Assembly (NCBI RefSeq): GCF_024438035.1
Contig: NZ_JANFQF010000002.1
Coordinates: 186,001-250,000, forward strand
Origin: Rhodococcus tibetensis
GTDB taxonomy: Bacteria > Actinomycetota > Actinomycetes > Mycobacteriales > Mycobacteriaceae
Length of the DNA stretch: 64,000 nt
Direction: 5' to 3'
The notes under the pieces are model-generated. The model ran no database searches, had not been told where the DNA came from, and saw nothing but the letters and a program-made list of their open reading frames with translations. The first letter of the stretch is position 1; each line of letters begins with the position of its first letter. The translations under genes and the position numbers were made by a program. This document shows positions 33,336-60,215 of the stretch, piece by piece.

Positions 33336-33336
33336 G

Positions 33337-39091: not shown

Positions 39092-40276
39092 TTACAGGGC
39101 AACCTCGAACAGACCGGCACCACCCAGGCCGGTCGCAGCGCACATCGTCACGACGACGTACTTCGCACCGCGCCGCTTGCCCTCGATCAAGGCGTGTCCC
39201 GCCATGCGGGCTCCGCTCATGCCGTAGGGGTGGCCGATCGAGATGGCGCCACCATTCACGTTGAGAAGTTCGTCGGGGATGCCCAGCTTGTCACGGCAGT
39301 AGACCGCCTGAACCGCGAAGGCCTCGTTGAGCTCCCACAGGCCGATATCGGAGACGCTCAGGCCGAATCGATCCAACAACGCCGGTACTGCGTACACGGG
39401 CGCGATACCCATCTCGTCGGGTTCGACGCCGACACTCGTGTAGCCCCGGAAGTATCCGAGCGGCTCGATACCTTCCTTTTCCGCGGTGTCGCGATTCATC
39501 ACGATGACCGCCGACGCACCATCGGAGAGCTGGCTGGCGTTACCCGCTGTGACACATCCATCGGCACGCATCACCGGCTTCAGTGCCTGCAGGCCTTCCA
39601 ACGTGGTGCTGGGCCGGTTGCCTTCATCGTGTGTGAGGGTGACGGTACTGAACGATTCCTCGCCAGTTTCCTTGTTCACGACTCGCTTGACCGATTCCAT
39701 CGGAACGATCTCGTCGTCCAGCAGACCTGCCGCCTGCGCGGCGGCCGTGCGCTGCTGGCTCTGAAAAGAGAACTCGTCCTGAGACTCCCGGCTCACGCCG
39801 TAGCGGTCGTAGACCACCTCGGCCGTTTCGATCATGTGCATGTAGTAGTCGGGCTTGTTCTGCCTGATCCACGGCTCTTCGATCATGAAGTCGTAGCCCG
39901 GGACCTGAATCATGCTGATCGACTCGACGCCGCCGGCGGCGACCACATCGAGCCCCCCCTGGAGCACACGATAGGAACCCGCGACAATCGCTTCCAACCC
40001 CGACGTACAGAACTTGCTGACGGTGATTGCCGGTGTAGTGACAGGGATTCCGGCGCGGATCGCGACCTGACGCGCGATATCACCGCTTTGCACTCCGGTC
40101 GTGAGGGCGGCTCCCATCACGACGTCCTGGACGCGAGAGGGCTCGAGTCCGGCCTTCTTCAGCGCGTGCTCGACGGCGTGCCCTCCCAAGGTCGCACTGT
40201 GGCTATTGTTGAACGCCCCGCGATACGCCTTTCCGATGGGGGTACGCGCCGTCGAGACGATTGCCGCTTCTCTCAT
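39092..40276 (-). CDS. Acetyl-CoA acetyltransferase (thiolase)
   Basis: This 394-residue thiolase cleaves 3-ketoacyl-CoA or condenses acetyl-CoA units. The nucleophile is Cys90 in [33 protein letters not shown] holds the general base His, and [16 protein letters not shown] the second catalytic Cys. [14 protein letters not shown] is also present. It starts 48 bases after the upstream enoyl-CoA hydratase on the same strand, so the two form a beta-oxidation pair under the promoter at 41247-41275. The 255 bases between its end and the TetR start hold no clear gene. Confidence 0.95.
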
Positions 40277-40324
40277 GATTCTTCTGTCCTTCGATGTTGA
40301 TGTTGTCGGCCGGTGCGTTCCGAC

Positions 40325-41134
40325 TCAGTTACCGGTGTATACGCCGGCGCGGCGCTGGAGGAACGACGCGACGCCTTCGGCGGCGTCGCTGCTTCCGACG
40401 ACCTCGGACCGCAGCTCAGGAACTACCTTGAAGGCGGCCGGAGTTCCCTCAGCGGCAGCAAGGCGGGACACGGCCAGCGAGTGACGCACTGCCATCGGCG
40501 CCGCTGCCGCGATCTCATTGGCCAACTCGAGGGCCCGATCGAAGAGCTCATCCGCCGGAACGACTTCTTGTACCAGACCGATCCGGTGCGCTTCCGTCGC
40601 ATTCAAGTGATTGCCGGTGAGCAGGTACCGTTGCGCATTGGCATAGCCGACACGCTCGGCCCATCGCGCCGCCCCACCGCCGAACGCAAAGACACCGCGC
40701 AGAACCTCCGGCTGGCCGAACAGCGTGCCCTCGGCGGCGACGATAAATTCACCAGCGAGCGCGAGCTCGAGTCCGCCAGCGAAGCACATGCCATGAACAG
40801 CGGAAATCACCGGCTTCGACAACCGAGAGCCCTCCATTCCGAAGGGGTCGTACTCTCCTTCGCTGTAGACCAGCGCACCGCTTTCGACGAGGTCCTTCAG
40901 TTGCGTCATATCCGCTCCAGCGCAGAACACCCCTCCCTCGCCGTACAGCACGGCACAGCGCAGATCGTCATCGCTGTCGTAACGCTTGTATGCCTCGGCC
41001 AGGGCCGAGAACATCTCTCCAGTCAACGCATTCTTCTTGTCGGGCCGATTCAGGCCGATCAACAGCACGTTTCCGCGTACCTCGGTGGTGACAGTGCTGG
41101 ACTTCACGCCGGCTTCGATCGTCGATTCAGGCAT
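40325..41134 (-). CDS. Enoyl-CoA hydratase/isomerase, crotonase family (first)
   Basis: This 269-residue crotonase-fold protein hydrates or isomerises enoyl-CoA. It shows LLIGLNRPDKKNALTGEMFS, the oxyanion-hole GGVFCAGADMTQLKDL, and VHGMCFAGGLELALAGEFIV followed by GQPEVLRGVFAFGGGAARW. The acidic residue typical of hydratases at the second position is replaced in part (G-V-F-A-F-G-G), so the exact reaction is uncertain. It is the first gene of the hydratase-thiolase operon. Confidence 0.9.
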   Translation of the reverse strand: MPESTIEAGVKSSTVTTEVRGNVLLIGLNRPDKKNALTGEMFSALAEAYKRYDSDDDLRCAVLYGEGGVFCAGADMTQLKDLVESGALVYSEGEYDPFGMEGSRLSKPVISAVHGMCFAGGLELALAGEFIVAAEGTLFGQPEVLRGVFAFGGGAARWAERVGYANAQRYLLTGNHLNATEAHRIGLVQEVVPADELFDRALELANEIAAAAPMAVRHSLAVSRLAAAEGTPAAFKVVPELRSEVVGSSDAAEGVASFLQRRAGVYTGN

Positions 41135-41549
41135 TCTCTACGTTCCTTCTGTTGGACGAATTGCGGCCCACACGAAGGCGAGCGCTTGTTGGCGGGACGA
41201 ACGTCGCCGGTTCGGTTCTGCCGATACCGGCAACGCGGCTAACTTGACGATAGAGAACAGTCTCTCTCATGTCAACGGTGGGTTTCCTGTAGATGCGGTA
41301 GATATCGAAGCGGTCGTCGGGATAGAGACGAGCACACTCAGGCTGGCCGATCCTGACAGTAGAAAACTGAAACAACATAGCCCGCAAGGTGTCTCACGTT
41401 GGCTGTGGATTATCTCGTCCACATGCCTCCGACTCGTCGGCCTCTGTGCTGCAGAGTGCTGGTGTCAGCAGGCCTGTGTTGATCACCGCCGGGGGAGTCG
41501 CCCAAGGATCAAATTGTCGAACATCATTCGCTTTGTCGTGGCTCCGGGA
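41135..41549. other. Intergenic region upstream of the hydratase-thiolase operon
   Basis: These 415 bases hold the promoter and operator at 41244-41275 and no convincing gene. The part between 41280 and 41540 is AT-richer than its surroundings, with no long conserved frame. Confidence 0.5.
41244..41275 (-). promoter_or_regulatory. Promoter with embedded operator TAGAGAACAGTCTCTC
   Basis: Minus-strand TTGACA (41275-41270), 17 bases, then TATCGT (41252-41247) is a strong promoter driving the hydratase-thiolase operon. The spacer contains the palindromic TAGAGAACAGTCTCTC (41251-41266). The same element occupies the same place in the promoter of the helical-protein array at 44564-44592. A plus-strand TTGACG at 41244 mirrors the -35, making the whole site roughly symmetric. 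Confidence 0.75.
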
Positions 41550-44563: not shown

Positions 44564-44592
44564 TTGACGGTGTAGAGAACGGTCTCTACCAT
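44564..44592 (+). promoter_or_regulatory. Promoter of the helical-protein array with operator GTAGAGA-N4-TCTCTAC
   Basis: TTGACG (44564-44569), 17 bases, TACCAT (44587-44592). The spacer and -10 edge hold a perfect palindrome GTAGAGA-ACGG-TCTCTAC (44572-44589). The core TAGAGAACNGTCTCT is shared with the hydratase-thiolase promoter at 41244-41275, in the same position relative to the -35. The expected transcript start is near 44599. Confidence 0.78.
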
Positions 44593-44653: not shown

Positions 44654-44737
44654 ATGACAGCCGTCGTCACCCCGGACCTTCTCGTCACGCTGTACGACAG
44701 CGACGACCTAGCTGCGCCTGTGCCGGTGGTGTCATGA
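44654..44737 (+). CDS. 27-residue leader ORF of the helical-protein array
   Basis: A short frame with an AGGAG ribosome-binding site (44643-44648) starts at ATG 44654 and ends with TGA at 44735-44737. The stop overlaps the start of the next gene (ATGATG at 44734-44739). The product starts MTAVVTPDLLVTLYDSDDLA and codon use is like the neighbours'. It may couple translation, be a true small protein, or be the remnant of a longer gene. I recognise no family. Confidence 0.45.
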   Translation: MTAVVTPDLLVTLYDSDDLAAPVPVVS

Positions 44738-45384
44738 TGGAGGGCTTCCCGCACAGGCTCGGCGCCGTCGCGCGCAACGGCGCCGAGCCCGAGGCCGAGG
44801 TCGAGGTCGACACCACTGTGCTTCGATCGGTGTCATCCAGACGTGAAGTCTCACGCGGTACCCGGATCGGTCGTGGAGTGGTGGTGCTGGCATTGATCCC
44901 ACTCGGCGTTTTCTATCTCGGTCCGAGAATTTACGATCTCACCGCGACGCCGGGGCGCCTGCAGCAGTCTGTCGAGGCGGCAGATCACTACAACCCCGCG
45001 CTGGCTCGGCTTGTCGAGCACGAGCGGGTGACGGTGAGTGCTTTTGCGGCACTGGACAAGGTGCGTCAGTGCCTGACCGATGTTCTCGGCATGGGCGAAG
45101 CGGTGTCGGCAGAACTCGGCACCCTCATCGGAACGATATCGGTAGATCTACAGGAGATTCTCGACCATACGGGCGTCGACATCGACGGCCTGGTCGGGTC
45201 TCTCGATACCCTCAGCGCTCGCGTTGGCGCACTGCGAGCGCCGGCGAACAGTGCGGCCACCGCATTGTCGGATAACCGCGCGACGATGGCCGCCATCCTC
45301 GACGACGTGCGTGTGACGGCCGCTCGAGTACACGACACACGTCTTTCCGTGGAATCCGCAGCCACCGATCTGTCCGGAAGGTAA
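44734..45384 (+). CDS. Membrane-anchored helical protein, array member 1
   Basis: This 216-residue protein has a charged N-terminal cytoplasmic part and one membrane helix at about 52-68 (VVVLALIPLGVFYLGPRIY). An Ala/Leu/Val-rich helical outer domain of about 140 residues follows, with heptad-like spacing (LVEHERVTVSAFAALDKVRQ; DIDGLVGSLDTLSARVGALR; SVESAATDLSGR at the end). The domain has one Cys, no catalytic motif and no MCE domain. The start overlaps the 27-codon ORF. The frame is open upstream to ATG 44599, close to the expected transcript start, so a leaderless longer form is possible. No family recognised. Confidence 0.75.
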   Translation: MMEGFPHRLGAVARNGAEPEAEVEVDTTVLRSVSSRREVSRGTRIGRGVVVLALIPLGVFYLGPRIYDLTATPGRLQQSVEAADHYNPALARLVEHERVTVSAFAALDKVRQCLTDVLGMGEAVSAELGTLIGTISVDLQEILDHTGVDIDGLVGSLDTLSARVGALRAPANSAATALSDNRATMAAILDDVRVTAARVHDTRLSVESAATDLSGR

Positions 45385-45391
45385 GCAACTC

Positions 45392-45925
45392 ATGGTGTTT
45401 TTCGGACGACCGGGTGGGCCGGCCAGAACCGTTCTCGCCCTGGTAGCCGTTGGCGTACTCGGCCTGCTGTCAGTCGTGATCTTCAACCTGAACAGGAGCC
45501 TGGAGAACCAGCAACGAGTCAACGCCACCAGTGTCGGTGTTTCCGAGAGCTTCCTCGACGTCAACGATCAACTGACCGCGGAGCTCGGGGAACTGACCCA
45601 GCTGACCGGTACTGCGGAGTCGGCGCTCGACTCCATCAGGGCGTTGGGGCCACTCCTGGCGCGACTGGATCACGCCATCACGCCGGTCGCTGCGTCTCTG
45701 TCGAGCACCGCCCAAGGAGCCCAGATCACCAATGAGCAACTTGCCGCGATCGCGCAGATTCTCGGTGAGGTGCATAACGTCATCCTTCCGCTGGTGGACT
45801 CCGCCCAGGCGTTCGGTCAGCAGGGGGAAGACCTGTTGGCGGTGATCGAGGGATTGATCGCCGACTTACAGACTGCTGTCGAATCCGCGGCGACAATCAA
45901 CCAGATGCTTCCACTGCCGGGCTGA
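45392..45925 (+). CDS. Membrane-anchored helical protein, array member 2
   Basis: This 177-residue protein has a short basic N-terminus, one membrane helix (TVLALVAVGVLGLLSVVIFN, about 13-32) and a helical outer domain. Recurrent pieces are VNDQLTAELGELTQLTGTAE, LGPLLARLDHAITPVAASLS and AQILGEVHNVILPLVDSAQA. It ends with INQMLPLPG. It starts seven bases after member 1, behind GGAAGG. The plan matches its neighbours but sequence identity by eye is low. Function unknown; a structural or lipid-contacting coiled coil is possible. Confidence 0.78.
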   Translation: MVFFGRPGGPARTVLALVAVGVLGLLSVVIFNLNRSLENQQRVNATSVGVSESFLDVNDQLTAELGELTQLTGTAESALDSIRALGPLLARLDHAITPVAASLSSTAQGAQITNEQLAAIAQILGEVHNVILPLVDSAQAFGQQGEDLLAVIEGLIADLQTAVESAATINQMLPLPG

Positions 45926-45968
45926 ATACCGACCCGCCACTTATGCCTCTCGACCGACTGGACGTGAA

Positions 45969-46637
45969 ATGCGACGTAAAGACCGAAGCCTGAGAAGTCG
46001 TTCCGACATGGCTGGACCTCAAACTGCCATGTTGCCCTCGGCTACTCCACAATCAGACAGGTCCGCGGTCACTCACCCTGTCACCAAGTTTTCAGTTGCC
46101 ACCGAATGGCTGGGCAGACTAGCGGCGGTCATGTCTGCCGTGCTACTCGTGCTCGTGTTGATCGCGATTCAGGAGGGGCTGGCGGTTCGGCAAAGTACCC
46201 GCGCCATCGTGGACAACTTCAGGCAAGCCAACCAGTATTTCGACGAGCGTGCCGATCTGGCCGCACCGGCTCGTGTCCGAAAAGAGCTTTCAGACTTGAA
46301 AATCGTGCTGGCGGAATTGAATGCGGCGACCGCCGCGGACGTTGATCAGCTGGCCGCAATGCTGCCGGACATGCGGACGTTGGTTACTGCCGGTCATAAC
46401 GACGTCGATATCGCCCACCAGCTCCATGGCGTTTCCTCGTCGCTGCAGGGCGCGGCGGGATCGCTACACGCCATCTCCGCCGACGCGGACGCGGCGGTGG
46501 TCAAGGTGAACGATCGGCTTCTGGCCGCGCTGCAACTGGCCGATCAGCTCAACGCCGAACTCGAGCGTACGACGGTCAAACTCGCGCCGCTTCCAGCGCA
46601 GGGCAATGTGATCCCGGCGCCGACGGGAGGGAAGTAA
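45969..46637 (+). CDS. Membrane-anchored helical protein, array member 3
   Basis: This 222-residue protein has a longer, Ser/Thr-rich N-terminal tail, one membrane helix at about 50-67 (LAAVMSAVLLVLVLIAIQEG) and a helical domain: NFRQANQYFDERADLAAPAR, LNAATAADVDQLAAMLPDMR, LQGAAGSLHAISADADAAVV. The Pro-rich end reads APLPAQGNVIPAPTGGK. A second in-frame Met lies at residue 14. Its stop overlaps the start of member 4. No family recognised. Confidence 0.78.
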   Translation: MRRKDRSLRSRSDMAGPQTAMLPSATPQSDRSAVTHPVTKFSVATEWLGRLAAVMSAVLLVLVLIAIQEGLAVRQSTRAIVDNFRQANQYFDERADLAAPARVRKELSDLKIVLAELNAATAADVDQLAAMLPDMRTLVTAGHNDVDIAHQLHGVSSSLQGAAGSLHAISADADAAVVKVNDRLLAALQLADQLNAELERTTVKLAPLPAQGNVIPAPTGGK

Positions 46638-47299
46638 TGGTAGGCAGTCGAACTTTTGCCTCGGTTGTGCTGGCATTCGGCGTGGCGCCCGCCATCGGCT
46701 TGTGCGTGATCAATGGCTTTTTTCCCACGTTCCGCGATATCAGCGACCCTCTCGGTCGACCATCGGCCTTGAGCGTGCAGGTGATCGATTCGGCCGAAAG
46801 ACTCGACGAGCTCACCGCCGAACTGGAGCCGAAGCACGCGCGGCTCGCGGCGGATATCCAAGTTCTCGGACCCATGTCGAACGACCTAGCCGTGTTGGCC
46901 GGTCGGAGCGTCGAATTATCCCCACTGTCAGCGGCATTGACCGGCAATGCATCGCAGGTCGCGGGTATCGCGGCACCTTTGCCGGACGTTGTGACAGGCG
47001 TTACCGCGCGTTCCGGCGAGGCCGGCGCCACCGTCGATGGGTTGGCGACGGCGGTTGGTTCCGTCGCCACCGAACTGCAGGGTATCCACGACGGTTTGAC
47101 CACAATGCAGCTCACTCTTCTCGCTCTCGGCCCGAAGATGTCGGGTATCGCCTCGACGCTGGCGACGATCCAGGAAGAGGCTGCCCATGTTCGGGAGTTC
47201 GGTCCGCTCCTCGCGGTGGTCGGCCCTACCTTCAACAGTCTCGGTATCCCGCCGTTGGGTTTCGAGGCACCACCATTACCGCCGCTGCCTCATCCTTGA
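46637..47299 (+). CDS. Membrane-anchored helical protein, array member 4
   Basis: This 220-residue protein begins almost directly with a hydrophobic segment (TFASVVLAFGVAPAIGLCVI), which may be an anchor or a signal peptide. The helical domain repeats small-residue/Leu patterns: DSAERLDELTAELEPKHARL, LAVLAGRSVELSPLSAALTG, GLATAVGSVATELQGIHDGL. It ends Pro-rich (PPLGFEAPPLPPLPHP). The start overlaps the stop of member 3 by one base. No family recognised. Confidence 0.78.
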   Translation: MVGSRTFASVVLAFGVAPAIGLCVINGFFPTFRDISDPLGRPSALSVQVIDSAERLDELTAELEPKHARLAADIQVLGPMSNDLAVLAGRSVELSPLSAALTGNASQVAGIAAPLPDVVTGVTARSGEAGATVDGLATAVGSVATELQGIHDGLTTMQLTLLALGPKMSGIASTLATIQEEAAHVREFGPLLAVVGPTFNSLGIPPLGFEAPPLPPLPHP

Positions 47300-47338
47300 G
47301 CATCCGGACAGTCGATTTTGTCGTTCGACGGAGTGAAC

Positions 47339-47878
47339 ATGCACATTCAGAAAAAGTTTCGGTTGTCCTGGGCGATCACCCTGGCATTCACCATTGCGGT
47401 GTTGAGCGGCTTGTTGATTCTCACGAGAGATCTGGGCGTCACCAATGACACGTTGAATGACGTTGTCGTGCAGGTGAACACGCTCGACAAGACGACCGAT
47501 GAGGCGCTCGACGGGGCGCATCAATTGCCACCTGCAGCCGAGGCGGCACGACAGGGGCTGCCGGAGGTGATCGGCGTCATCGATTCCCTCACCCGTGCGA
47601 ATCAGGTGCTGGGCACCCTCGGTGACCAACTCGATACCCTCGGTGCCACGCTGACCGAGGCTGACGCTCCCTTAGCGGGAACCATTTCGGCCGGTCAGGG
47701 CGCAGGCGAACAGGCCGGTGCGGCCGTTGTGCCGCTCGGCGGGATCGCGGCGACCCTGGGCGATGCCAACGTCAACGCGCAGGCACTCGGCCAGAAGCTG
47801 GATGAGACGCTTACTCTGTCGCAGACGATCGACCAGAAACTACGCATCGCGTTGCTGCTGCCAAAAATCGGCAACTGA
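47339..47878 (+). CDS. Membrane-anchored helical protein, array member 5
   Basis: This 179-residue protein has one membrane helix (WAITLAFTIAVLSGLLILTR, about 10-29) and a helical domain: LNDVVVQVNTLDKTTDEALD, SLTRANQVLGTLGDQLDTLG, NAQALGQKLDETLTLSQTID. It ends LRIALLLPKIGN. ATG 47339 has GACGGAG six bases upstream; TTG 47318 is an alternative. It closes the array. The 330 bases to pknK hold no other convincing gene. Confidence 0.78.
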   Translation: MHIQKKFRLSWAITLAFTIAVLSGLLILTRDLGVTNDTLNDVVVQVNTLDKTTDEALDGAHQLPPAAEAARQGLPEVIGVIDSLTRANQVLGTLGDQLDTLGATLTEADAPLAGTISAGQGAGEQAGAAVVPLGGIAATLGDANVNAQALGQKLDETLTLSQTIDQKLRIALLLPKIGN

Positions 47879-48210
47879 CAAATAATCAAGTTAAGTGCCG
47901 GCGGCAGTCCGCACGCGAGAGCGCCGCTATGGGGGCGGCTCGGGTAGATCAGGCCGTTCCCCGAGCACCCTCGCCCTCGGCGCTGACGGGATCAACGTGT
48001 GGACATGCCGTGAGCAGCGGCGACCTCGACGACGGCCCAGCGTCGTCGAAGCCCGTTTGTTGCCCCGATGCTGAATCGCAGTCCCATTTGCCTGTCAGGC
48101 GGCGATATCCTGAAGGCACATTCTTCTCGAGGTGAGGCAGGTTGCCTTATCGAGGATCGGATCGTCCAGGTCTCGTTCTCGCTCTTCGGGTAGACGGTGA
48201 GGACACTCCG

Positions 48211-51200
48211 ATGGCCGCAGGTGATCCGTTCGAAACCCAGCGCGGCGTGGCCCACACGGTCACGGCGGAGTTGAGCGCTGCGGGGTTCGAGGACGCCCAC
48301 GAAATCGGCCGGGGCGGGTTCGGTGTCGTCTACCGCTGCGTGCAACCGGCGCTGGACCGCATTGTGGCGGTGAAGGTCCTTGCTGCGGACCTCGACGAGG
48401 AGAACCGGGTTCGGTTCTTCCGGGAGCAGCGGGCGATGGGCCGTCTCACAGGACATCCGCACATTGTGAGCGCACTGCATGTCGGTGCCACCGACAGCGG
48501 TCGCCCCTACATCGTGATGCCCTACCACTCGCAGGATTCGCTCGACGTCCGGATCCGCCACGACGGCCCACTGCCGTTGGAGGTAGCACTCAGGTTCGGG
48601 GTGAAGATGGCCGGTGCGCTCGAGACCGCACACCGTCTCGGCGTCTTGCACAGGGACCTCAAACCCGGAAACATCCTGCTCACCGACTACGGGGAGCCGG
48701 CGCTGACCGATTTCGGCATCGCCCATATCACCGGCGGATTCGAGACCGCCACCGGCACCGTGACCGGGTCGCCGGCCTACACCGCACCCGAGGTGCTCAG
48801 CGGCGAACCTCCGACTGAGGCCTCCGATATCTACGGTCTCGGTGCGACGGTGTTCTGCGCCATCACCGGTCACGCCGCGTTCGAGCGCCACAGCGGTGAG
48901 CATGTGGTTGCTCACTTCCTACGGATCACCACCCAGCCGGTCCCGGATCTGCGCGAGCACGGCGTTCCCGACGACGTATCCGAGATAGTCGACCGGGCCA
49001 TGGCCACCGATCCGCGGCAGCGTCCTGCCACCGCCGCCGACTTCGGCGATGAACTGCGGCGGATCCAGCTCCACCACGGCTTCCCCGTCGACGAGATGGC
49101 CCTGTCCGGCGAACCGGGCGCGCACCGACGCGATCCGGATCCGGCGCGCGCCCGCCCGAGATCCACGGCAGCCCCGCCACCTATACCGTCGACGGCACCC
49201 GCCGTGAGGACTCCGTTGAGTAACCTGCCGCTCGAGCTCACCAGCTTCGTCGGGCGCCGCCATGAGTCGACCGAGGCGAAGCAGCTGCTGTCGGCCTCTC
49301 GTCTGGTGACGTTGACCGGGATCGGTGGTGTCGGGAAAACGCGTCTGGCGCTTCGGCTGGCCGCCGATGTCCGGCGGGGATTCGGTGACGGAGTCTGGTT
49401 GGTCGAACTGGGCGAGTTGCGGGACGGGTCATTGCTGATGGACACGGTGGCCGCAACCCTGGGGCTGCGGGATCAGCCTGCGCGACAGCTCGACGACGTG
49501 GTGGCGGAGTTTCTCACCTCCAAGCACCTTTTGCTTGTACTGGACAACTGCGAACAGGTGGTGGAGGCGGTCGCGGCATTGGCCGAGATGCTGCTGCGCA
49601 CCTGTCCGCAGCTGCGGATCCTGGCCACGAGCCGCGAACCCCTGAGTATCGGCGGGGAGGCGGTGCTGCGCGTGCCCCCGCTGAGGGTCCCCGCCCCAGA
49701 CCGCGAGCCGTCGCTGCGGGCGCTGCCCGGGTACGACGCGGTGACGTTGTTCGCACAGCGCGCCGCAGCCGCCGTGCCCGGATTCGAACTTACCGAGGAC
49801 AACCGGGTGACGGTGGTCCGAATCTGCCACCAACTCGACGGCCTACCGTTGCCGATCGAGTTGGCGGCGGCACGGTTGCGGGCGATGTCGCCCGAGCAGA
49901 TTCTGGAGCGGCTGACCGACCGATACACGCTGCTGACCCTCGGCAATCGCGGTGCACCGACACGCCAGCAGACTCTGCGGCTGTCCATAGACTGGAGTCA
50001 CGAGCTCTGTACGTCTCGGGAACAGCAGCTGTGGGCCAGGCTGTCGGTGTTCGCGGGAAGTTTCGAACTGGATGCTGCCGAGGCGGTCTGCGGGGAGGAC
50101 CTGACTCCGGAGGAGTTGCTCGACACAGTGACGGCATTGGTCGACAAGTCGATCCTGATCCGGGAAGACGCCGGCTCGGCGGTGCGGTTCCGGATGCTCG
50201 AGACCCTGCGCGACTACGGCAAGGAGAAGGCTGAGCAGACCGGTATCCATCCGGTATTGCGACGACGGCACCGGGATTGGTATCAGCGTTTGGTGTTGCA
50301 GGTCGAAGCCGAATGGATCGGTCCGCAGCAATTGGAGTGGATTGCGCGGCTCGAGAGGGAACAGTCGAACCTGCGTGAGGCGATGGAATTTTGCCTGTCG
50401 GAGGCGCCCGAAACCGGCGCCGAGGCCGGTCTCCGGATAGCGGCGGCCCTGTTCCCGTTCTGGCTGTCCCGCGGCATGTTCCGAGAGGGGCGGCACTGGC
50501 TCGACCGGGCCCTGGTCCATAATCCCGAGCAGCCGACCGCTTCACGAGTGGGGGCGCTGTACGCTGCCAGCGTGTTCGCCGGCGTGCAGGGTGACCTGCC
50601 GGCCTCGAGGGCCCTGGTGGAAGAAGCGCAGGCGCTGACCCCGCAGATAACCGACCCGCTGGCCCGCGCACGCATCACCCATGCAGACGGCCTCCTGGGC
50701 CTCGTCAGCGGCGACCTTCCCCACGCCTGCACCCGCATGGAAGAGGCACTGGGGGTGTTCGGCGCCCGCGGCGACCTGTCATCGCGGGTGTGGATGCTGA
50801 TGATGCTCGGGCTGGTGTACGAATTGCAGGGAGATGTTCCGCGGGCCGTCGGCTGCCATCAGCAGGTTCTGGACATCACAGAATCACACGGTGAATCGGT
50901 ATACCGGTCGTATTCACTGTGGGCGCTGGGAGTGGCGGTCTTGCAGCAGGGCGATCGCGGTCAGGCGGAGGAACTGCTGGAACAGTGCTTGCGGCTGACC
51001 CGGTTGGTGGACGATCCGTTCACTGCCGCGATGACCCTGGAGGCTCTGGCGTGGATCGCCGGCACCGAGGACGGCGCACGACGCGCCGCCATCCTGATGG
51101 GGGCCGCGGAGGCGCTGGGGCGTGCCCTGGGAAGCTCCTCGGTGCTGTTCCCCACCCTGCTTGTCCGCCACGAGGACTGCGAGCGGCTCACTCGCACTGC

Positions 51201-51525
51201 CCTGGGTGAGCGTGCGTTCGAGGCGGCCCGAAGGGAGGGTGCGCTCCTGGGATTCGAGGAAGCCGTCGCCTACGCCCTCGGCGAGGGCCCCCAGACCGCG
51301 ACACCGCTCGCCGGTAGCAGTGCGACGGGCCTGACCAAGCGTGAGCGGGAGGTCGCAGACCTGGTAGCGCAGGGCCTCACCAACAAAGCCATCGCCGCCA
51401 GACTGGTGATATCGCCGCGCACCGCGCAGGGTCACGTGGAACACATCCTGACCAAACTTGGGTTCACCTCACGAACACAGATCGCGGGCTGGGTCGTGGA
51501 GCACGCGCAGGACGAGCGCGGCTGA
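48211..51525 (+). CDS. pknK: Serine/threonine kinase with AAA-type and LuxR domains, PknK-like
   Basis: This 1104-residue signalling protein has a kinase domain (about 35-290): GRGGFGVVYRCVQP, the VAVKVL lysine, HRDLKPGNILLTDYG, TDFGIAHITGGFE and the activation loop TVTGSPAYTAPEVL. An STAND/NB-ARC-like ATPase follows with Walker A LTGIGGVGKTRLALRLA and LLLVLDNCEQVVEA, then TPR-like helices. A C-terminal LuxR HTH is visible as LTKREREVADLVAQGLTNKA and RTAQGHVEHILTKLGF. Order, length and motifs match M. tuberculosis PknK (1110 aa). ATG 48211 aligns with the PknK N-terminus; TTG 48142 would add 23 unrelated residues. It lies just downstream of the helical array, on the same strand. Confidence 0.93.
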   Translation: MAAGDPFETQRGVAHTVTAELSAAGFEDAHEIGRGGFGVVYRCVQPALDRIVAVKVLAADLDEENRVRFFREQRAMGRLTGHPHIVSALHVGATDSGRPYIVMPYHSQDSLDVRIRHDGPLPLEVALRFGVKMAGALETAHRLGVLHRDLKPGNILLTDYGEPALTDFGIAHITGGFETATGTVTGSPAYTAPEVLSGEPPTEASDIYGLGATVFCAITGHAAFERHSGEHVVAHFLRITTQPVPDLREHGVPDDVSEIVDRAMATDPRQRPATAADFGDELRRIQLHHGFPVDEMALSGEPGAHRRDPDPARARPRSTAAPPPIPSTAPAVRTPLSNLPLELTSFVGRRHESTEAKQLLSASRLVTLTGIGGVGKTRLALRLAADVRRGFGDGVWLVELGELRDGSLLMDTVAATLGLRDQPARQLDDVVAEFLTSKHLLLVLDNCEQVVEAVAALAEMLLRTCPQLRILATSREPLSIGGEAVLRVPPLRVPAPDREPSLRALPGYDAVTLFAQRAAAAVPGFELTEDNRVTVVRICHQLDGLPLPIELAAARLRAMSPEQILERLTDRYTLLTLGNRGAPTRQQTLRLSIDWSHELCTSREQQLWARLSVFAGSFELDAAEAVCGEDLTPEELLDTVTALVDKSILIREDAGSAVRFRMLETLRDYGKEKAEQTGIHPVLRRRHRDWYQRLVLQVEAEWIGPQQLEWIARLEREQSNLREAMEFCLSEAPETGAEAGLRIAAALFPFWLSRGMFREGRHWLDRALVHNPEQPTASRVGALYAASVFAGVQGDLPASRALVEEAQALTPQITDPLARARITHADGLLGLVSGDLPHACTRMEEALGVFGARGDLSSRVWMLMMLGLVYELQGDVPRAVGCHQQVLDITESHGESVYRSYSLWALGVAVLQQGDRGQAEELLEQCLRLTRLVDDPFTAAMTLEALAWIAGTEDGARRAAILMGAAEALGRALGSSSVLFPTLLVRHEDCERLTRTALGERAFEAARREGALLGFEEAVAYALGEGPQTATPLAGSSATGLTKREREVADLVAQGLTNKAIAARLVISPRTAQGHVEHILTKLGFTSRTQIAGWVVEHAQDERG

Positions 51526-51559: not shown

Positions 51560-52171
51560 CTACGAAGCGGCCTTCTTCGTCGCTTCCGCGGCAAGCGCGG
51601 CATCGAGAAGAACCTCAGCAGCCAGGCGGGCCTGAGAAGCCGCTTCCCGGAAGTTCGAATGCATTTGGGCGCTGACGAAAACACCGTTCATCAAAATCAG
51701 AAGTTGGGTGGCCAGCGGCTCGGTCTGTTCGATGCCGGCTTCGGTGAGGTACCGCGCGAAGATTTCTCGAACGAAGTTCTTGTGAGCCACCGCGATATCC
51801 ACGAAGTTGTGTTCCTGGTCGGCCATTTCCACTGCGACGTTGATGAATGTGCACCCTCGGTACTCCGGGTCCTCGATCAATCGTCCGAGGAAGTCGAACG
51901 CCGCCAGCACGCGCTCCCGGCCGGTATCCCCGGCCTGTTCGACCTCACGTTCGAACTTGGCACGTACACGACGGTCCTTGTCGAGGAGGAACGCCTCGAC
52001 GAGGCCCTCCTTCGAACCGAAATGCCGATAGAGAGTCATGATCGGGGTATGCGCCTCTTCGAGCAGCCGGTTGACCCCGACGGCCCGGACGCCTTCGGTG
52101 TAAAACAGCTGCGCCGCGGCCATGAGGCGGTCCCGAGGCGCCAGGGCGGAGGTGTTTGCCGTTTTTGCCAT
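51560..52171 (-). CDS. TetR-family regulator
   Basis: This 203-residue protein has an HTH at about 12-55 (RLMAAAQLFYTEGVRAVGVN, RLLEEAHTPIMTLYRHFGSK) and a C-terminal domain with CTFINVAVEMADQEHNF, typical of TetR_C_33/AcrR-type members. It converges on pknK and is divergent from the second TetR gene at 52345. The ligand is unknown. Confidence 0.9.
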   Translation of the reverse strand: MAKTANTSALAPRDRLMAAAQLFYTEGVRAVGVNRLLEEAHTPIMTLYRHFGSKEGLVEAFLLDKDRRVRAKFEREVEQAGDTGRERVLAAFDFLGRLIEDPEYRGCTFINVAVEMADQEHNFVDIAVAHKNFVREIFARYLTEAGIEQTEPLATQLLILMNGVFVSAQMHSNFREAASQARLAAEVLLDAALAAEATKKAAS

Positions 52172-53147: not shown

Positions 53148-54182
53148 TCAGCTGGCCAGATCATTCATTGTCGACGCATAGTGCGGGTTCAGGGTGTCCG
53201 TTTCCGCCTGCATCTCGACACCGGTGATGCTGAAGCAATCCCGGTAGTCGCTGGGCGACATCGATAGGAACTTCCTGAACTCGCGACCGAAATGGCTTGC
53301 GTCGTAGTAACCCCAGCGGTGGGCAATGGACCCGATCGGAATGTCAGTGGCGACCACGTCGCGGCGTGCGCTAGCGAGTCGTTGCATGCGCACAACCGAC
53401 CCGACGGTATCGCCCGTGAGAGAGAAGGCGCGATGTACCGTACGGCTCGAGACGTTGAACGCCTTGGCGATATCGGTGACGCGGATCGGGCCGCTACGAA
53501 GGTGCTGTGTGATCCATTTTTCGAGCTGTGATCGAAGGGCGGGAAGCAGCGTTGGTCCGTCACATGCCGCCCGGCTACTGCTCCGGATCACCCCGGCCAC
53601 CAGCGTGAGCAACGCCTCTCGCGCCGCCTCTGCGTCTGCGGCGTCCATGGACGATACGTGCGAACCCATGCTTTCTACGAAACTGATCAGGACGCGCGCC
53701 AGCGGACGGGATTGATCCAGCATCAAACAATCGGGGATCGAACCGCCGGTGTCGTATGACGCCAGCGCGGAGAAGGGGATGACCACACTACGTTTCCGGA
53801 GCCCCGACGATACGGTGGAGTTGTACGCCACTCGACCCGTCGAGATGAGGCCGGTTCCAGGTTCGATGCGAGCGGTACCCGATTGCAGTTCGAAGTGTTG
53901 AGTACCGGAGGATGCTGTGAGCAGCATCAGCACCTCGGTGTTCGACGTTTCGATCAATCGCTTCGTGCGATTCACTTTCAGTGCGGGGCAATCCCACTCA
54001 GTGACTTTGATGTCGCTGAGATCGAGGGATCGTAGTAGTCCGTGGCCTTCGCCCTCTGCATCGGCCGAAATATCGATTCCCATCGGCACGAGCCGCCCCG
54101 CCATCGCGTTCTCCCAAGCCGACCGGCGGTCCCGACGCTCGACTTGGCGGAGGTCGAGCGTGGGGACCGAGTCGTCTTTCAT
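53148..54182 (-). CDS. AraC-family regulator, intact copy (module 1)
   Basis: This 344-residue protein has an N-terminal AraC-binding-like region (LRSLDLSDIKVTEWDCPALK) and a C-terminal double HTH: VTDIAKAFNVSSRTVHRAFS and IPIGSIAHRWGYYDASHFGR. This is the form of AraC/XylS and FeaR-like activators. The start is ATG 54182; a CTG start slightly upstream would match the paralogue. A 39-base hairpin lies in its first codons (54129-54167). It follows a broken SCP2-like gene, as its paralogues follow intact ones. It is the only complete AraC gene of the three copies. Confidence 0.9.
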   Translation of the reverse strand: MKDDSVPTLDLRQVERRDRRSAWENAMAGRLVPMGIDISADAEGEGHGLLRSLDLSDIKVTEWDCPALKVNRTKRLIETSNTEVLMLLTASSGTQHFELQSGTARIEPGTGLISTGRVAYNSTVSSGLRKRSVVIPFSALASYDTGGSIPDCLMLDQSRPLARVLISFVESMGSHVSSMDAADAEAAREALLTLVAGVIRSSSRAACDGPTLLPALRSQLEKWITQHLRSGPIRVTDIAKAFNVSSRTVHRAFSLTGDTVGSVVRMQRLASARRDVVATDIPIGSIAHRWGYYDASHFGREFRKFLSMSPSDYRDCFSITGVEMQAETDTLNPHYASTMNDLAS

Positions 54183-54193
54183 GACGCTGTGCT

Positions 54194-54370
54194 TCAGCGG
54201 CCGCGAACGAGGAGGTCGGTCCGTCCAGCGTTCTTCAGCAGCATGACGTACTTCGGAAACAGCTGTATGGCCGCCGGAATGACTCTGGGCGAGGTCGTCA
54301 TACTCCGGTCGATCATTGCGCCTGTGGTCACAGGACCGAGAAGATCCGGCGCTGCGGGAAGTAGACATGT
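54194..54370 (-). pseudogene. SCP2-like gene remnant (module 1)
   Basis: The minus strand keeps the SCP2-like C-terminus (VIPAAIQLFPKYVMLLKNAG, then RTDLLV), matching the intact paralogues that end LFPTYIKLL-AG-RADLLV and LFPTYIELLKKDGRTDLLV. The start region ATCACATG at 54366-54373 resembles the paralogues' start, but about 270 bases of the middle are missing and the halves are out of frame. It is therefore non-functional. Confidence 0.75.
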
Positions 54371-54719
54371 GATCGATTCCAATCCTGATGGCCGTGGCGC
54401 GACCGAACGGCAACGAGGTTGCTCGCAGTCCATAATGAAAGTTGTAACGAAGTTAGGGATACGCTACGCGGTGTACTTTCCTGTGGCAAGGGTCACATTG
54501 GTGTGCCTGTTTTGCGAGTCTCCTGGCACGGATTCGATGGTTGCAGTCAGGATGCGGACGGTCCGCGCCGGGGAGGCCGAGGTTTCTCGCCGGATGTCCG
54601 GCCTGTGTTTCGCGCGACGCGAAGCAGAACACCGCAACGTCCGTCGCCGTCGTCACCCGCGCCGGCTGTGCGGGGATGCGACAGCGTAGGTCGAAGTCTC
54701 GGCCGCTACTGCGGCCAGT

Positions 54720-55031
54720 TCAGCCGAAGTGACAGACGTAGTGCAGCGTGGTCAGGACCTCGATCTCGAATGAGCTGTTGCCGGGGACGTTGAAGGATTC
54801 GCCGCCGCGGTAGGTGAGGGTGTCGGTCTGGCCGGCGCGCGTGACCTTGCATTCGCCGTCGATCAGTTCCATGATTTCCGGCGCGGCAGTGTTGAACGTC
54901 AGGGTCGAGGGCTGGATTACACCGACCGACTTGGAGGTGCCGTCGGCCAGCTCAATGTTGTAGCTCACGCATTTGCCGTCGAAGTACACATTGGCCTTCT
55001 TGGTCACGCTGACGTTCTCGAACCGCGCCAT
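54720..55031 (-). CDS. ppnP: Pyrimidine/purine nucleoside phosphorylase, PpnP family
   Basis: This 103-residue single cupin matches PpnP (YaiE, DUF1255), which cleaves nucleosides with phosphate to a base and ribose 1-phosphate. Motifs visible are KANVYFDGKCVSYNIELADG, GVIQPSTLTFNTAAPEIMEL and YRGGESFNVPGNSSFEIEV, with the tail Y-V-C-H-F. Length fits the family exactly. It interrupts the duplicated SCP2-AraC region and does not look like part of the repeated module. Start ATG 55031. Confidence 0.88.
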   Translation of the reverse strand: MARFENVSVTKKANVYFDGKCVSYNIELADGTSKSVGVIQPSTLTFNTAAPEIMELIDGECKVTRAGQTDTLTYRGGESFNVPGNSSFEIEVLTTLHYVCHFG

Positions 55032-55254
55032 GATCTCTTTCCCGAGGTGGTGGAGGTGGAGCCGTCAGCGTACGCGAGCCTGGTCGCCGGCTCGGACGGC
55101 CGGGCGCGGAGTGCGTTAGCGTCGCTGGCATGCGGCTTCACGTGGGATATGCCATGTGGACGCACGCGGCAGAGTTCGGCCCCTCGGGTACCCCCGCCAA
55201 CCTCGAATTCCTGCACGACGGATCTTCGCGACCCGAATCGCTGGTGGCGCCTGT

Positions 55255-55390
55255 CCTTAATGGTGGGAAAGGGAGGTCCGTGGCGACCACATCGCGGCGT
55301 GCACGGCTTGTCGGTCTCGACGCTCGACCTGGCGGAGGTCGAGCGTCGAGACCCAGTCGTCTTTCACGATGTTGCGTTCCATCGTTCAGG
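55255..55390 (-). pseudogene. AraC gene remnant with internal deletion (module 2)
   Basis: About 135 bases resemble two separate parts of the AraC paralogues. One part is the segment encoding RRDVVAT near their C-terminus (CGACCACATCGCGGCGTGC, 55283-55301). The other is the segment encoding STLDLRQVERRD in their first codons, including the perfect hairpin 55314-55352. The 800 or so bases between them are absent. The remnant lies just downstream of the intact SCP2 gene of module 2. Confidence 0.65.
55314..55352. repeat. Perfect 17-bp inverted repeat, module 2 copy
   Basis: GTCTCGACGCTCGACCT (55314-55330) and its exact complement (55336-55352) flank GGCGG. The same hairpin occurs in module 3 (57853-57891) and in degenerate form in module 1 (54129-54167), within the first codons of the AraC genes. 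Confidence 0.85.
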
Positions 55391-55395
55391 CGGCG

Positions 55396-55803
55396 TCACT
55401 TAACGAGCAGGTCCGTCCGTCCATCTTTCTTCAGCAGCTCGATGTAAGTCGGGAAAAGCTTCGTTTGCGCGTTAATGGCTTTCGCCACGATTTTCATGTT
55501 CCCTGCCATGCCGATGTCGCCCCTCATCACAGCCATGGTCAGATTGAGGTCGCCCTGCCAGAAGCGGTTCGCATATTCGCCGGTCATCCGGAAGGTGCAA
55601 TCTGCCTTGCCGTCCGCTGCGCCGGGAACGGCGGTCAGGTTCGGCATGTCGATGATCATGGAGCCGTCGGGTTCGGTGGTGAGGATTTCGAAGACACCCG
55701 GGATGTTCGAGAGCTTCTCGAGGAGGATCGGGTCGCTCTTAGCCTGTTCGAAAGCCAAGCCGATGTACTTGTACAGTTCCTCGGCGGTCGGTGTTGCGGA
55801 CAT
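55396..55803 (-). CDS. SCP2-like (sterol-carrier fold) protein (module 2)
   Basis: This 135-residue protein has TAEELYKYIGLAFEQAKSDP, TTEPDGSMIIDMPNLTAV, CTFRMTGEYANRFWQGDLNL and the C-terminus LFPTYIELLKKDGRTDLLVK. The W-Q-G-D-L-N-x-x-x-A pattern is characteristic of SCP2-domain proteins, which bind sterols or acyl chains in a hydrophobic tunnel. ATG 55803 follows a purine-rich site; upstream residues are not conserved in the paralogue. The AraC gene expected downstream is only a remnant. Confidence 0.85.
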   Translation of the reverse strand: MSATPTAEELYKYIGLAFEQAKSDPILLEKLSNIPGVFEILTTEPDGSMIIDMPNLTAVPGAADGKADCTFRMTGEYANRFWQGDLNLTMAVMRGDIGMAGNMKIVAKAINAQTKLFPTYIELLKKDGRTDLLVK

Positions 55804-56089
55804 CTGTTGGTTGTTCCTCTCGTGACGGCCGTGGCACGACCGGGGCGGCAACAAAGTTGCCCTCCTTTGAAGCGGGCACTGTGACGAACCAAAGTATGTG
55901 GTCTGTGTCGCAACTTAGGTTAGGAGCGGAACGTGGTGCTCACTAGGACGAGGACGCCCGGTGGCGGTATTCCCACGCCACGCCAGCCAGTTGCTTCGGC
56001 GACAAATATTTTCCGGAAACGATCTCCTGTCGGCAGGAACATCGCATTTTGAGTCGAACCACAAAAGGCAGTTGTTCGATCGTGTTTCA

Positions 56090-56395
56090 CGCGCTGTCCC
56101 AGCGCCTTGCAACCCGTGTTTCATTGCCCTCTCAGGGCGAGTCGGCGACCACGTCGGCTCGCCGAGGCGAGGCCGTCGCAGATCGAGGCTTGTTCGGCCG
56201 CTGAGGCAGCGCAGGAATCCACGATGGACGTCCGTTGCCACGTCGGTGGACTTCCGTACTTACTGCAAGCCGCAGTCGACCAAGGATTCCTGGCGCTCGA
56301 TCCAGCTTCCTCGAGCGGTACGCCGGAGCGGGATTCAGCCCCTTCGGGATTGCGTTGGCGTGCGCGTGCACTCGGAGCAATCGGACCCGAACACA
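56090..56395 (+). pseudogene. Truncated TetR gene copy
   Basis: This stretch keeps recognisable pieces of the TetR gene at 52345. SAAEAAQESTMDVRCHVGGL and LQAAVDQGF correspond to SVAEAAQVSTMSVYYHLGGL and LQAVVDRGF. After a frame change, SPFGIALACAC corresponds to LFGIALACRQ. The N-terminal part and everything after about residue 100 are missing. The upstream flank also resembles that of the intact gene. Confidence 0.72.
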
Positions 56396-56396
56396 C

Positions 56397-56849
56397 TTAC
56401 GCGGTCGACATCAGCGCGATGAACCGAAGAACCGTAATCGGGTGTGTGATAAGCCCCTTGACGATGAGCTCCTTGCGGAGGATTGCGCGGATCACAGCCA
56501 TGCCCTGCCTGCTGAAGAAGCCTGTCGGGATCAGCCCGCCCGCCCGCATCCTCAGTTGCGACACGGCCATCAGCTGATCGCCCGTCGTGTCGATCACAGT
56601 GACACTGGGTCGCCCGGCTATATCGTTCAGAACCAAGGCCTTGTCAGATCCGAAGAGAATTGTGCATTCCGTTCCGGATCCGCCTTCGCGCAATGCAATC
56701 GGCCGTGTCATTCGAGCGGCTGTCTTGCGTCGTCCCGGAAAACTGTCAAAATTTTCTTGGAGCAGTAGTCCAGTCAACGATGCCATGCCATTGGGATCAG
56801 CATCAGCGTAAAATGTGCACTTGTACAGGTCTTCGGTTGCTTGTGTCAT
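56397..56849 (-). CDS. SCP2-like protein, divergent type
   Basis: This 150-residue protein shows LTGLLLQENFDSFPGRRKTA, ECTILFGSDKALVLNDIAGR and a C-terminus KELIVKGLITHPITVLRFIA. It is clearly different from the two 135-residue SCP2 proteins nearby. The K-G-L-x-x-H-P end resembles SCP2 sterol-binding domains, which transfer or sense lipids, but the assignment is moderate. It lies 24 bases after the frameshifted AraC gene on the same strand and overlaps the remnant TetR region by few bases. Confidence 0.6.
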   Translation of the reverse strand: MTQATEDLYKCTFYADADPNGMASLTGLLLQENFDSFPGRRKTAARMTRPIALREGGSGTECTILFGSDKALVLNDIAGRPSVTVIDTTGDQLMAVSQLRMRAGGLIPTGFFSRQGMAVIRAILRKELIVKGLITHPITVLRFIALMSTA

Positions 56850-56873
56850 GCTGGGAGCCTTTGCGGAGTTGAA

Positions 56874-57921
56874 TTAGCTGGCCAAGTCGTTCATGGTCGA
56901 TGCGAATCGCGGGTTCAGCATTTCCATATCGGAATGCTCGCCGACATGGGAAACTTCGAAACTATCCCGATAGTCGCTCGGCGACATGGACAAGAAAGTT
57001 TTGAACTCGCGACCGAAATGGCTGGCGTCGTAGTATCCCCAACGGTGGGCAATGGACCCGATCGGGAGACTGGTGGCAACCACATCGCGGCGTGCGCCGG
57101 CGAGTCTCTGCATACGAACGACCGATCCGACGGTGTCTCCCGTCAGGGAGAAGGCGCGATGCACCGTTCGGCTCGAGACATTGAACGCCTTGGCCATGTC
57201 GACCACGCGGATCGGGCCACCGCGCAGGTGTTCCTTAATCCACCCTTCGAGCTGTGACCGCAGGGCCGGCAGCAGGGCCGGTCCGTCGTACGCCGCGCGG
57301 GTGTTGCTGCGGATCACCCCCGCCACGAGCGTGAGCAGCGCGTCGCGCGCGGCGTCGACCTCGGCGGGGTCCATGGACGTGATATTTGTGCCCATGCTGT
57401 CCACGAAGCTGATCAGCAGGCGCGCCAGCGGACGAGATTTGTCGAGCATCAGGCAGTCGGGAATCGCGCCGCCGGTGTCATAAGGGGCGAGGGCGGCGAA
57501 CGGGATGACTACGCTCCGCTTCCGGAGCCCGCTCGACACGGTGGAGGAGTACGCCACTCCAGTCGTCGAAATGAGGGCGGACCCGGCTTCCATACGTGCG
57601 GTGCCTGAATCCCATTCGAAACTGACTCCCCGCCGATGCGGTGAGGAGAATCAGCGCCTCAGTGTCCGTCGTCTCAACCATTCGTTTCGTGCGAAGGAGT
57701 TTGAGCTCAGGGCACTCCCATTGGGTGACTTTGATATCGCTGAGGTCGAGGGATCGGAACATCCCGTGGTTGTGTTCGTCCGAGTCGGCCGAGAGGTCGA
57801 CGCCCATCGGCACCAGCCGGCCCGCCATCGCCCGCTCCCACGCTGTCCGGCGGTCTCGACGCTCGACCTGGCGGAGGTCGAGCGTCGAGACCGAATCGTC
57901 CGTCACGACGCGGTGTTCCAT
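56874..57921 (-). pseudogene. AraC-family gene with a frameshift (module 3)
   Basis: The protein starts at ATG 57921 with MEHRVVTDDSVSTLDLRQVE, collinear with the intact paralogue. After LILLTASAGSQF (near 57625) the frame is lost; the correct continuation (SGTARMEAGSALISTTG) is in another frame and runs to the proper C-terminus (FASTMNDLAS) at 56874. One extra base or two missing bases explain it. The C-terminal HTH region is intact (VVDMAKAFNVSSRTVHRAFS), so the lesion is recent or a sequencing error. Confidence 0.8.
57853..57891. repeat. Perfect 17-bp inverted repeat in the AraC 5' coding region (module 3)
   Basis: GTCTCGACGCTCGACCT (57853-57869) and its exact complement (57875-57891) flank GGCGG, about 30 bases after the AraC start codon. 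It encodes part of STLDLRQVERRDR. Its retention in three copies suggests selection at DNA or RNA level. Confidence 0.85.
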
Positions 57922-57937
57922 CGTTCGAACGGCACGA

Positions 57938-58342
57938 TCAAACGAGTAGGTCCGCCCGGCCGGCGTCCGTCAGCAGCTTGATGTATGTCGGGAAGAGTTC
58001 CTTGGCTGCCGGAATGGCCTTGGCCAGGGTGGCCATCTTCCCTTCGATGCCGATCGCACCCGACGTCACGGACAAGAGGAGATTCAGGTCGCCCTGCCAG
58101 AAGCGGTTCGCGAATTCACCGGTCATGCGGAGTGTGCAGTCCGACTCGGCGTCGGCGCTGCCCTGGACGGCGGTCATGCGCGGGATGTCGATGATCACGA
58201 CGCCGTTGGGCTCGGTGGTGACCACCTTGAGTACCCCCTCGGTGCTCGAGAGCTTCTCGACGAGCTTCGGGTCGCTCTTGGCCTGTTCGAACGTCAGTCC
58301 GATGAACTTGTACAGGTCCTCGGCGCTGGGCGATGGGGACAT
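57938..58342 (-). CDS. SCP2-like (sterol-carrier fold) protein (module 3)
   Basis: This 134-residue paralogue of the module-2 protein has SAEDLYKFIGLTFEQAKSDP, CTLRMTGEFANRFWQGDLNL, LLSVTSGAIGIEGKMATLAK and the C-terminus LFPTYIKLLTDAGRADLLV. SCP2 domains bind lipids such as acyl-CoA or sterols. ATG 58342 follows GAGGAA. The AraC gene starts 16 bases after its stop, so the two were an operon. Upstream DNA (58400-58480) resembles that of module 1. Confidence 0.87.
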   Translation of the reverse strand: MSPSPSAEDLYKFIGLTFEQAKSDPKLVEKLSSTEGVLKVVTTEPNGVVIIDIPRMTAVQGSADAESDCTLRMTGEFANRFWQGDLNLLLSVTSGAIGIEGKMATLAKAIPAAKELFPTYIKLLTDAGRADLLV

Positions 58343-58600
58343 TCTTTTGATTCCTCTCGTGACGGCCGTGGGACGACCGGGCGGCAACGACGTTGCCGTG
58401 GACTCATAATGAAAGTTGTAACGAGGCTACGAAAAGCTGTGTGGGTTGCTCTGACCGTGGCAAGGTCACATCGGCGTGCGCGCTGGACGAGTGTGTCTGT
58501 ATGGCTCGTGCGGGCAGGTGCGAATGTGTTGACGCGGTCGGGTAGTCGAAATGTCCGGCGGTATCTGCGCAGACGCCCACCCTCGACGCGGCTCGAGCCG

Positions 58601-60175: not shown

Positions 60176-60215
60176 CCCCCAAGCACTGCGTGCAGGGAGG
60201 TACCTAGGTACCCCC
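60176..60215. repeat. Short palindromic insertion in the transposase, copy 1
   Basis: About 40 bases (CCCCCAAGCACTGCGTGCAG then GGAGGTACCTAGGTACCCCC) separate codons for ISTI from TERVMDGM-type codons that are otherwise contiguous in IS256 transposases. It shares CCCCCAAGCACT-C-TGCA-GGAGGTACCT with copy 4. Confidence 0.8.

Follow-up and report, generated by a model that had tools for sequence, protein, structure and literature searches.

Little is known of how hydrophobic pollutants get past the mycolic-acid envelope in Rhodococcus, Gordonia and their relatives. In Gram-negative degraders, channels of the FadL/TodX type would be the counterpart of the portable uptake cassette considered below, and we know of no dedicated hydrocarbon channel established in mycolate bacteria. 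The Mce1 system of Mycobacterium smegmatis, as described in the available passages of a preprint (PMC9882608), consists of six subunits, each with an MCE domain, accompanied by YrbE permeases and the ATPase MceG. The available passages of a 2026 study of styrene degraders (PMC13101518) report that the styrene cluster of R. opacus 1CP contains an insertion of seven hypothetical genes, similar to genes of G. rubripertincta CWB2; these seven genes are styrene-induced in both strains, five of them probably have a transmembrane section, and their function is left open. Here we analyse a 64-kb stretch (hereafter the window) of the 5.8-Mb genome of Rhodococcus tibetensis (G000, contig 2), and in it five adjacent genes, A to E (Table 1), which code for single-pass coiled-coil membrane proteins. 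We find that the A-E set is a real, conserved and mobile module, and that the conserved unit is larger than five genes, including also a protein of 150 amino acids (aa) and a sterol-carrier-like protein of the SCP2 type. We propose, giving the idea an even chance, that A-E form an envelope conduit of coiled coils that hands hydrophobic substrates to SCP2-type carriers.

Conservation was assessed on 30 blocks from loci longer than 9 kb, some of which are copies in sister plasmids, and which span Rhodococcus, Gordonia, Nocardia, the genome G075 and the window itself. By tblastn, A-E keep their order in 30/30 blocks; the original prediction had named beforehand, as its refuting outcome, that the five genes would not stay together in other genomes, and this did not occur in the three genera surveyed. 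The 150-aa gene lies within 13 kb in 29/30 blocks, the single miss (L057) being a stretch that stops short of the expected place, and the SCP2-type gene is full-length in 26 blocks, a fragment in two and absent from two. Not all blocks are therefore intact, as the matches to the 150-aa protein and to E are each broken in two pieces at L064. Five of the 30 blocks also have nearby a membrane protein of four helices, built as a twin repeat and encoded upstream (L050 11004-12047, L051 12290-13333 and L052 12120-13349, with shorter matches at L073 9601-10065 and L080 9159-9623). The two members tested match no Pfam family above cut-off, and some versions of the system may include this protein as an additional component.

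The set and its catabolic context are found mostly on plasmids. Among 72,556 plasmids searched by tblastn, B and D were each found in 18 records (17 Rhodococcus and one Gordonia). In genome contigs, a single scan yielded 11 loci. B is the best conserved of the five proteins. Strong matches to B (E-value <1e-60) are present in 8/28 genomes of the genus, with a ninth at 0.006, and strong matches to D in 2/151 genomes of the family; at 1e-10, the B profile finds a single genome among 397 of the order, namely its own. Among named organisms, the closest relative of B found is in Nocardia rhizosphaerihabitans (77% identical), followed by Rhodococcus proteins at 60-63%.

The original prediction described five adjacent genes of one plan forming one operon, and both points are supported by the open reading frames (ORFs) and a hydropathy scan. 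The spacings of A/B, B/C, C/D and D/E (7, 43, -1 and 39 bases) are operon-like, and each protein has a short N-terminus, one membrane helix and then a heptad-periodic helical domain of 134-155 residues. A single main hydrophobic window is found in the N-terminal region of each, and B has a marginal second one within its helical domain (residue 117, Kyte-Doolittle value 1.63). Leu/Pro-rich ends, announced for most of the proteins, are present in B, C, D and E, not in A. The start proposed for the first gene was wrong: A begins at 44734, and the ATG at 44654 lies in another frame. Membership of no recognisable family agrees with our Pfam and NCBIfam scans, in which all matches of A-E fall below cut-off: the strongest sub-threshold NCBIfam match is that of A to NF033766 (20 bits, cut-off 45), while the Mce model TIGR00996 gives 16.9 bits with A and 13.6 with D (cut-off 140.5) and PF11887 reaches 13.3 and 11.5 bits (cut-off 32.6). 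Equally, the predicted lack of MCE and NTF2 motifs holds up to an E-value of 1, at which A-E have no match to the MCE (MlaD) domain PF02470 or, in Pfam and NCBIfam, to the MCE-associated (NTF2-like) families.

Purifying selection acts on all five genes, since comparison with Nocardia L057 and genome G075, from which the N-terminal parts of A and C were excluded, gives nonsynonymous divergence of 0.14-0.24 and synonymous divergence of 0.65-1.22. We also considered A-E as paralogues of each other, and no pair scored convincingly above its reversed control in profile comparison (best C-D, 17.7 versus 8.3 percent). In D, Cys23 at the outer end of the membrane helix (window 46703-46705) is conserved in at least 90% of 27 sequences; we take its context not to fit a standard lipobox.

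An oxygenase of hydrocarbon type is encoded within the stretch examined in 17/30 blocks, and these neighbouring enzymes are unrelated to one another. On plasmids, styAB is near the block of G. rubripertincta CWB2 and that of R. opacus 1CP, while genes for a toluene monooxygenase accompany the blocks of WAY2 and S2-17. A Rieske dioxygenase with rubredoxin is found in B4, S8, 3D and S2-17, an alkane monooxygenase in R79, and P450 systems in P23, TG-1 and VOC-14. The block of Gordonia OPL2 is preceded by a PF02332 di-iron monooxygenase and a glutathione synthetase, and its contig is the one used for the isoprene cluster in the available passages of PMC12917321. Fourteen blocks lack annotation; there, seven oxygenase queries run locally by tblastn add StyA at L061, TmoA at L062 and a P450 at L064, in an analysis that also covered eight neighbouring ORFs by Pfam. 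Left uncounted were a flavin mononucleotide-dependent monooxygenase in one control, luciferase-like genes near L073 and a P450 in the window, 9 kb upstream of A. Among annotated plasmid blocks, 13/16 have a P450 or an oxygenase for alkane, naphthalene-type, toluene or styrene substrates in stretches of 17-37 kb, against 2/8 arbitrarily chosen control stretches, each 24.5 kb long and together taken from four of these plasmids (Fisher p 0.02); these blocks are not independent, several being near copies of a nar type and two, at L080, sharing one monooxygenase.

The annotated records contain seven consecutive hypothetical genes after the sty genes in 1CP, and the same families after styAB in CWB2. 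Matched by position and count, the seven styrene-induced genes of PMC13101518 appear to be the A-E set and its partners. The available passages of that study concern styrene only and assign no function, fold or SCP2 membership, and the present analysis finds the set beside other oxygenases as well, and also in a chromosomal form. Our literature search, whose coverage left out most subscription journals, returned no title or abstract assigning a function to the set. ABC transporter genes beside the 1CP block, and about 9 kb from that of P23, would suit a system working in the other direction, with A-E forming the periplasmic section of a route that expels hydrocarbons or toxic intermediates. 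However, no pump is a constant partner in the 16 annotated plasmid blocks, and we consider this highly improbable.

Both partner families were examined further. In the SCP2 family, 13/21 aligned members match PF02036 at E-values up to 0.1, and its profile matches solved SCP2 chains at 1e-5. The SCP2 proteins tested look cytoplasmic, because they contain no hydrophobic window of 1.6 or more. The window carries two such genes (Table 1), within a partial duplication (53148-58387) in which an AraC-type regulator and the SCP2 gene are each present twice; the second AraC copy is split over two overlapping frames on the minus strand (56874-57593 and 57478-57921), and an extra SCP2-like fragment matches at 54206-54346.

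The 150-aa gene lies directly 5' of A, on the same strand, in 27/30 blocks. In the window, this place is occupied by a 27-codon ORF whose peptide aligns without gaps, from residue 1, with the N-terminus of the 150-aa family (BLOSUM62 score 57, equalled in 0/1000 shuffles, against 21-38 with six other families). Because of this remnant-like ORF, and because the gene stands directly upstream in so many blocks, the window has probably lost its 150-aa gene upstream of A. An intact member is found about 11 kb downstream of A-E on the opposite strand, and G075 likewise keeps a copy, 5 kb away. We tried to place the 150-aa family with SCP2, and membership was not established by Pfam (1/21 members matching PF02036, at an E-value of 0.03), by profile comparison (probability 0.3) or by a fold search, where an SCP2-type chain first appears at rank 9 (E-value 1.2) for the structure model (predicted local distance difference test score, pLDDT, 54).

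The cytoplasmic appearance of the SCP2 proteins, and the co-location of oxygenases of several classes, would also agree with a membrane scaffold, by which A-E would anchor or gather oxygenases and SCP2 carriers on the inner membrane. Substrate dissolved in the membrane would then be oxidised at once, and nothing would be moved through the periplasm. However, the conserved main part of A-E comes after the membrane helix, and the basic N-termini suggest that this part lies outside the inner membrane; N-terminal tails longer than 40 residues are present in A and C only. A scaffold seems unlikely to us.

The window, L057 and G075 represent a chromosomal type of block, and have in common a TetR-TetR-AraC neighbourhood. 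Between the window and L057, the likeness extends to a thiolase, two enoyl-CoA hydratases (CoA, coenzyme A), a homologue of old yellow enzyme and a PknK-like sequence. In the 64 kb, the palindrome upstream of A (Table 1) has one other site at 14/16 or better, located upstream of the enoyl-CoA hydratase-thiolase genes, and the next best is 12/16; a site of at least 14/16 arose in 4/500 shuffles, whereas sites of 12/16 are within chance (mean 2.05 per shuffle). In L057, palindromes precede the same two units (14/16 at the enoyl-CoA hydratase-thiolase place, 12/16 at the other), with an additional site, of a chance-level 12/16, just upstream of its TetR gene. L081 has a 12/16 palindrome before A, and the region upstream of A aligns across the window, L057 and L081. 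The shared palindrome therefore ties A-E to a CoA-dependent catabolic operon. Downstream of the window are a luciferase-like gene and a gene of the old-yellow-enzyme type. The substrate of the window type might, as a guess, be a terpenoid.

Directly 3' of E, the window encodes a protein kinase-LuxR regulator of 1127 aa (48142-51525), which has a partial match in L057 (57%) and only a short one in G075.

An envelope device against solvent stress would be another way to account for these contexts: A-E would strengthen or mend the envelope when hydrocarbons fluidise the membrane, and hence be co-induced with the pathway. Their occurrence with toxic-solvent pathways and the styrene induction reported in the available passages of PMC13101518 are consistent with it. 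It leaves unexplained the SCP2 and 150-aa partners as well as the palindrome that the window form shares with the enoyl-CoA hydratase-thiolase genes, and we regard it as improbable.

Table 1. Positions in the window of the A-E genes, their partners and candidate regulatory elements.
Feature	Position	Strand	Remarks
A, single-pass coiled-coil membrane protein, 216 aa	44734-45384	+	
B, single-pass coiled-coil membrane protein, 177 aa	45392-45925	+	
C, single-pass coiled-coil membrane protein, 222 aa	45969-46637	+	
D, single-pass coiled-coil membrane protein, 220 aa	46637-47299	+	weak excess of Mce matches
E, single-pass coiled-coil membrane protein	47339-47878	+	179 aa from ATG; 186 aa from alternative TTG 47318
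27-codon ORF, probable remnant of 150-aa partner gene	44654-44737	+	stop overlaps start of A
Intact 150-aa family member	56397-56849	-	48% identical to pDK2 protein
SCP2 sterol-carrier-like protein	55396-55854	-	PF02036, E-value 2.3e-8, 34.7 bits (cut-off 21.3)
Second SCP2 sterol-carrier-like protein	57938-58387	-	PF02036, E-value 2.9e-5, 24.8 bits (cut-off 21.3)
Palindrome TAGAGAACGGTCTCTA, candidate repressor operator	44573-44588	.	upstream of A-E, after TTGAC
Second palindrome copy, 14/16	41251-41266	.	upstream of enoyl-CoA hydratase-thiolase genes
Thiolase (39092-40276) and enoyl-CoA hydratase (40325-41134)	39092-41134	-	behind second palindrome
TetR-type regulator, candidate palindrome binder	51560-52171	-	also near A-E in L057 and L081

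Three further groups of window genes were noted. Genes for a metallo-beta-lactamase-fold protein and an alpha/beta hydrolase (61255-63278) recur with 100% protein identity at L082 8113-10136, which is the same genome region. The ORFs at 59515-61008 resemble transposase remains, presumably of the IS256/mutator type. Genes for a class V aminotransferase, an FGE-sulfatase and a histidine-specific methyltransferase (29492-35054) resemble what we take to be an ergothioneine cluster.

Concerning the build of A-E, hydropathy after the membrane helix has a period of 3.46-3.52 residues in all five family alignments, and the observed power was reached by 3 of 2000 shuffles for A, 27 for C (the weakest) and none for B, D and E. 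Residues I, L, V, M or F fill 57 and 62% of heptad positions a and d. Two-stranded coiled coils are usually enriched in charge at positions e and g. In A-E, 14 and 18% of the residues at these positions are charged, compared with 17% overall, so that no enrichment of the two-stranded type is seen. A PDB sequence search with D mostly returned designed coiled coils, tropomyosin, chemoreceptors and viral spike helices, which we read as generic coiled-coil matches. By simple arithmetic, a continuous helix of 134-155 residues would be about 200-230 Å long, which is near the periplasm of about 200 Å cited in the available passages of PMC9882608. AlphaFold2 models D as a membrane helix followed by two long helices, 42-112 and 115-195 (pLDDT 60, predicted template-modelling score 0.22), so both a kinked rod and a hairpin are possible.

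The conduit put forward in the original prediction was an inference, to which the neighbouring catabolic genes and the SCP2 partner lend weight. Its established basis is the gene plan, the heptad periodicity, the co-conservation, the neighbouring genes and the shared palindrome. In this reading, A-E would assemble into a single heteromeric complex. The N-terminal helix of each protein would hold it in the inner membrane, from which its long coiled coil would extend outward, and the five coiled coils would together build a tube or bundle pointing to the mycolic-acid outer membrane. Along this structure, hydrophobic substrates such as styrene, alkylbenzenes, naphthalene and alkanes, or in the window a compound degraded via CoA esters, might move inward, and we propose that this movement is passive because cytoplasmic oxygenases consume the substrate. 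Inside, SCP2-type proteins would take up the substrate and carry it to the first enzyme. A bolder version would have one copy each of A-E form a heteropentameric alpha-helical barrel with a hydrophobic bore spanning the periplasm, a passive, ATP-independent hydrocarbon pipe leading to a cytoplasmic SCP2 shuttle, and a portable cassette that plasmids pair with any hydrocarbon oxygenase; in this full form we doubt it.

Several points weigh against a conduit. The 13/30 blocks without a counted oxygenase in the stretch examined comprise the chromosomal type (window, L057 and G075), RHA1 pRHL2 and DK17, both with lower meta-pathway genes nearby, one locus beside arsenic genes, and seven unannotated loci (L058, L059, L060, L063, L068, L073 and L079). 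A permease, ATPase or outer-membrane channel is never a constant annotated partner, and no transport or binding data for A-E were found. The available passages of the AD45 isoprene paper state that no other gene is highly isoprene-induced outside the iso cluster, and name no A-E-like set. Small hydrocarbons may need no conduit at all, and a hairpin in D, if the low-confidence model were right in this respect, could halve the reach. Finally, the likeness of A-E to Mce proteins seems mostly compositional.

This likeness was examined with reversed sequences as controls. The hhalign probabilities of the A-E tails against Mce tails, forward and reversed, are 25.7/15.2 for A, 4.2/9.7 for B, 21.6/10.8 for C, 70.6/68.4 for D and 14.1/6.2 for E. 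Homology to Mce is thus not shown by profile, forward values being at most about twice the reversed ones and all low except that of D, where the two are equal; because scores lie this near the controls, we claim no Mce membership. The helical period does not discriminate between the two either, since 69/69 Mce tails have it at 3.4-3.6. Among weak matches in 151 genomes, MCE-domain proteins make up 27 of the 28 examined for D out of 39 places, 8/14 for a reversed-D decoy examined in full, 2/4 for A and 4/14 for E, in a test that covered A, D and E, gave a decoy to D only and includes non-independent matches from related genomes. D hits 34 of the 149 genomes without an orthologue, reversed D 14/151. 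We keep this weak excess as a lead. Together with the similar gene plan, it would favour a decayed or split Mce system, in which A-E come from Mce proteins, have lost the MCE domain and now act alongside the chromosomal Mce complexes or in their place. Against this derivation stand the near-control profile scores of all five and the low share of Mce among matches of A and E, and we hold it to be very improbable. There is no YrbE gene between A and E, and none is named in the tables of the 16 annotated plasmid blocks, although no dedicated YrbE search was made. The subunits number five in 30/30 blocks, versus six paralogous subunits in Mce. A-E perhaps work like Mce, rather than being Mce.

As a mobile set near at least five oxygenase classes, reported as styrene-induced in two strains in the available passages of PMC13101518, A-E are a direct, deletable candidate for hydrocarbon passage. 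If the conduit reading is true, it would be relevant to bioremediation strains and to the engineering of aromatic uptake, and would place next to Mce a second kind of hydrophobic conduit, one that works without a pump.

Among known systems, the SCP2 family (PF02036) is matched by the SCP2 partners, and the 150-aa family is not shown to be a member. A-E differ from Mce1 in having no MCE domain and no constant permease or ATPase partner; they resemble it, as far as the available passages of PMC9882608 go, in their several distinct subunits, N-terminal membrane helix, long helical region and mycolate envelope, and in the hydrophobic cargo that we propose for A-E. The pentamer of COMP, according to the available passages of PMC3487892, binds fatty acids, vitamin D3, retinol, benzene and cyclohexane in its hydrophobic bore. 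COMP is a short extracellular animal protein, a homopentamer with no membrane anchor and not a transporter, and we claim no homology with A-E; its five-stranded coiled coil offers a precedent for hydrocarbons within a five-helix barrel.

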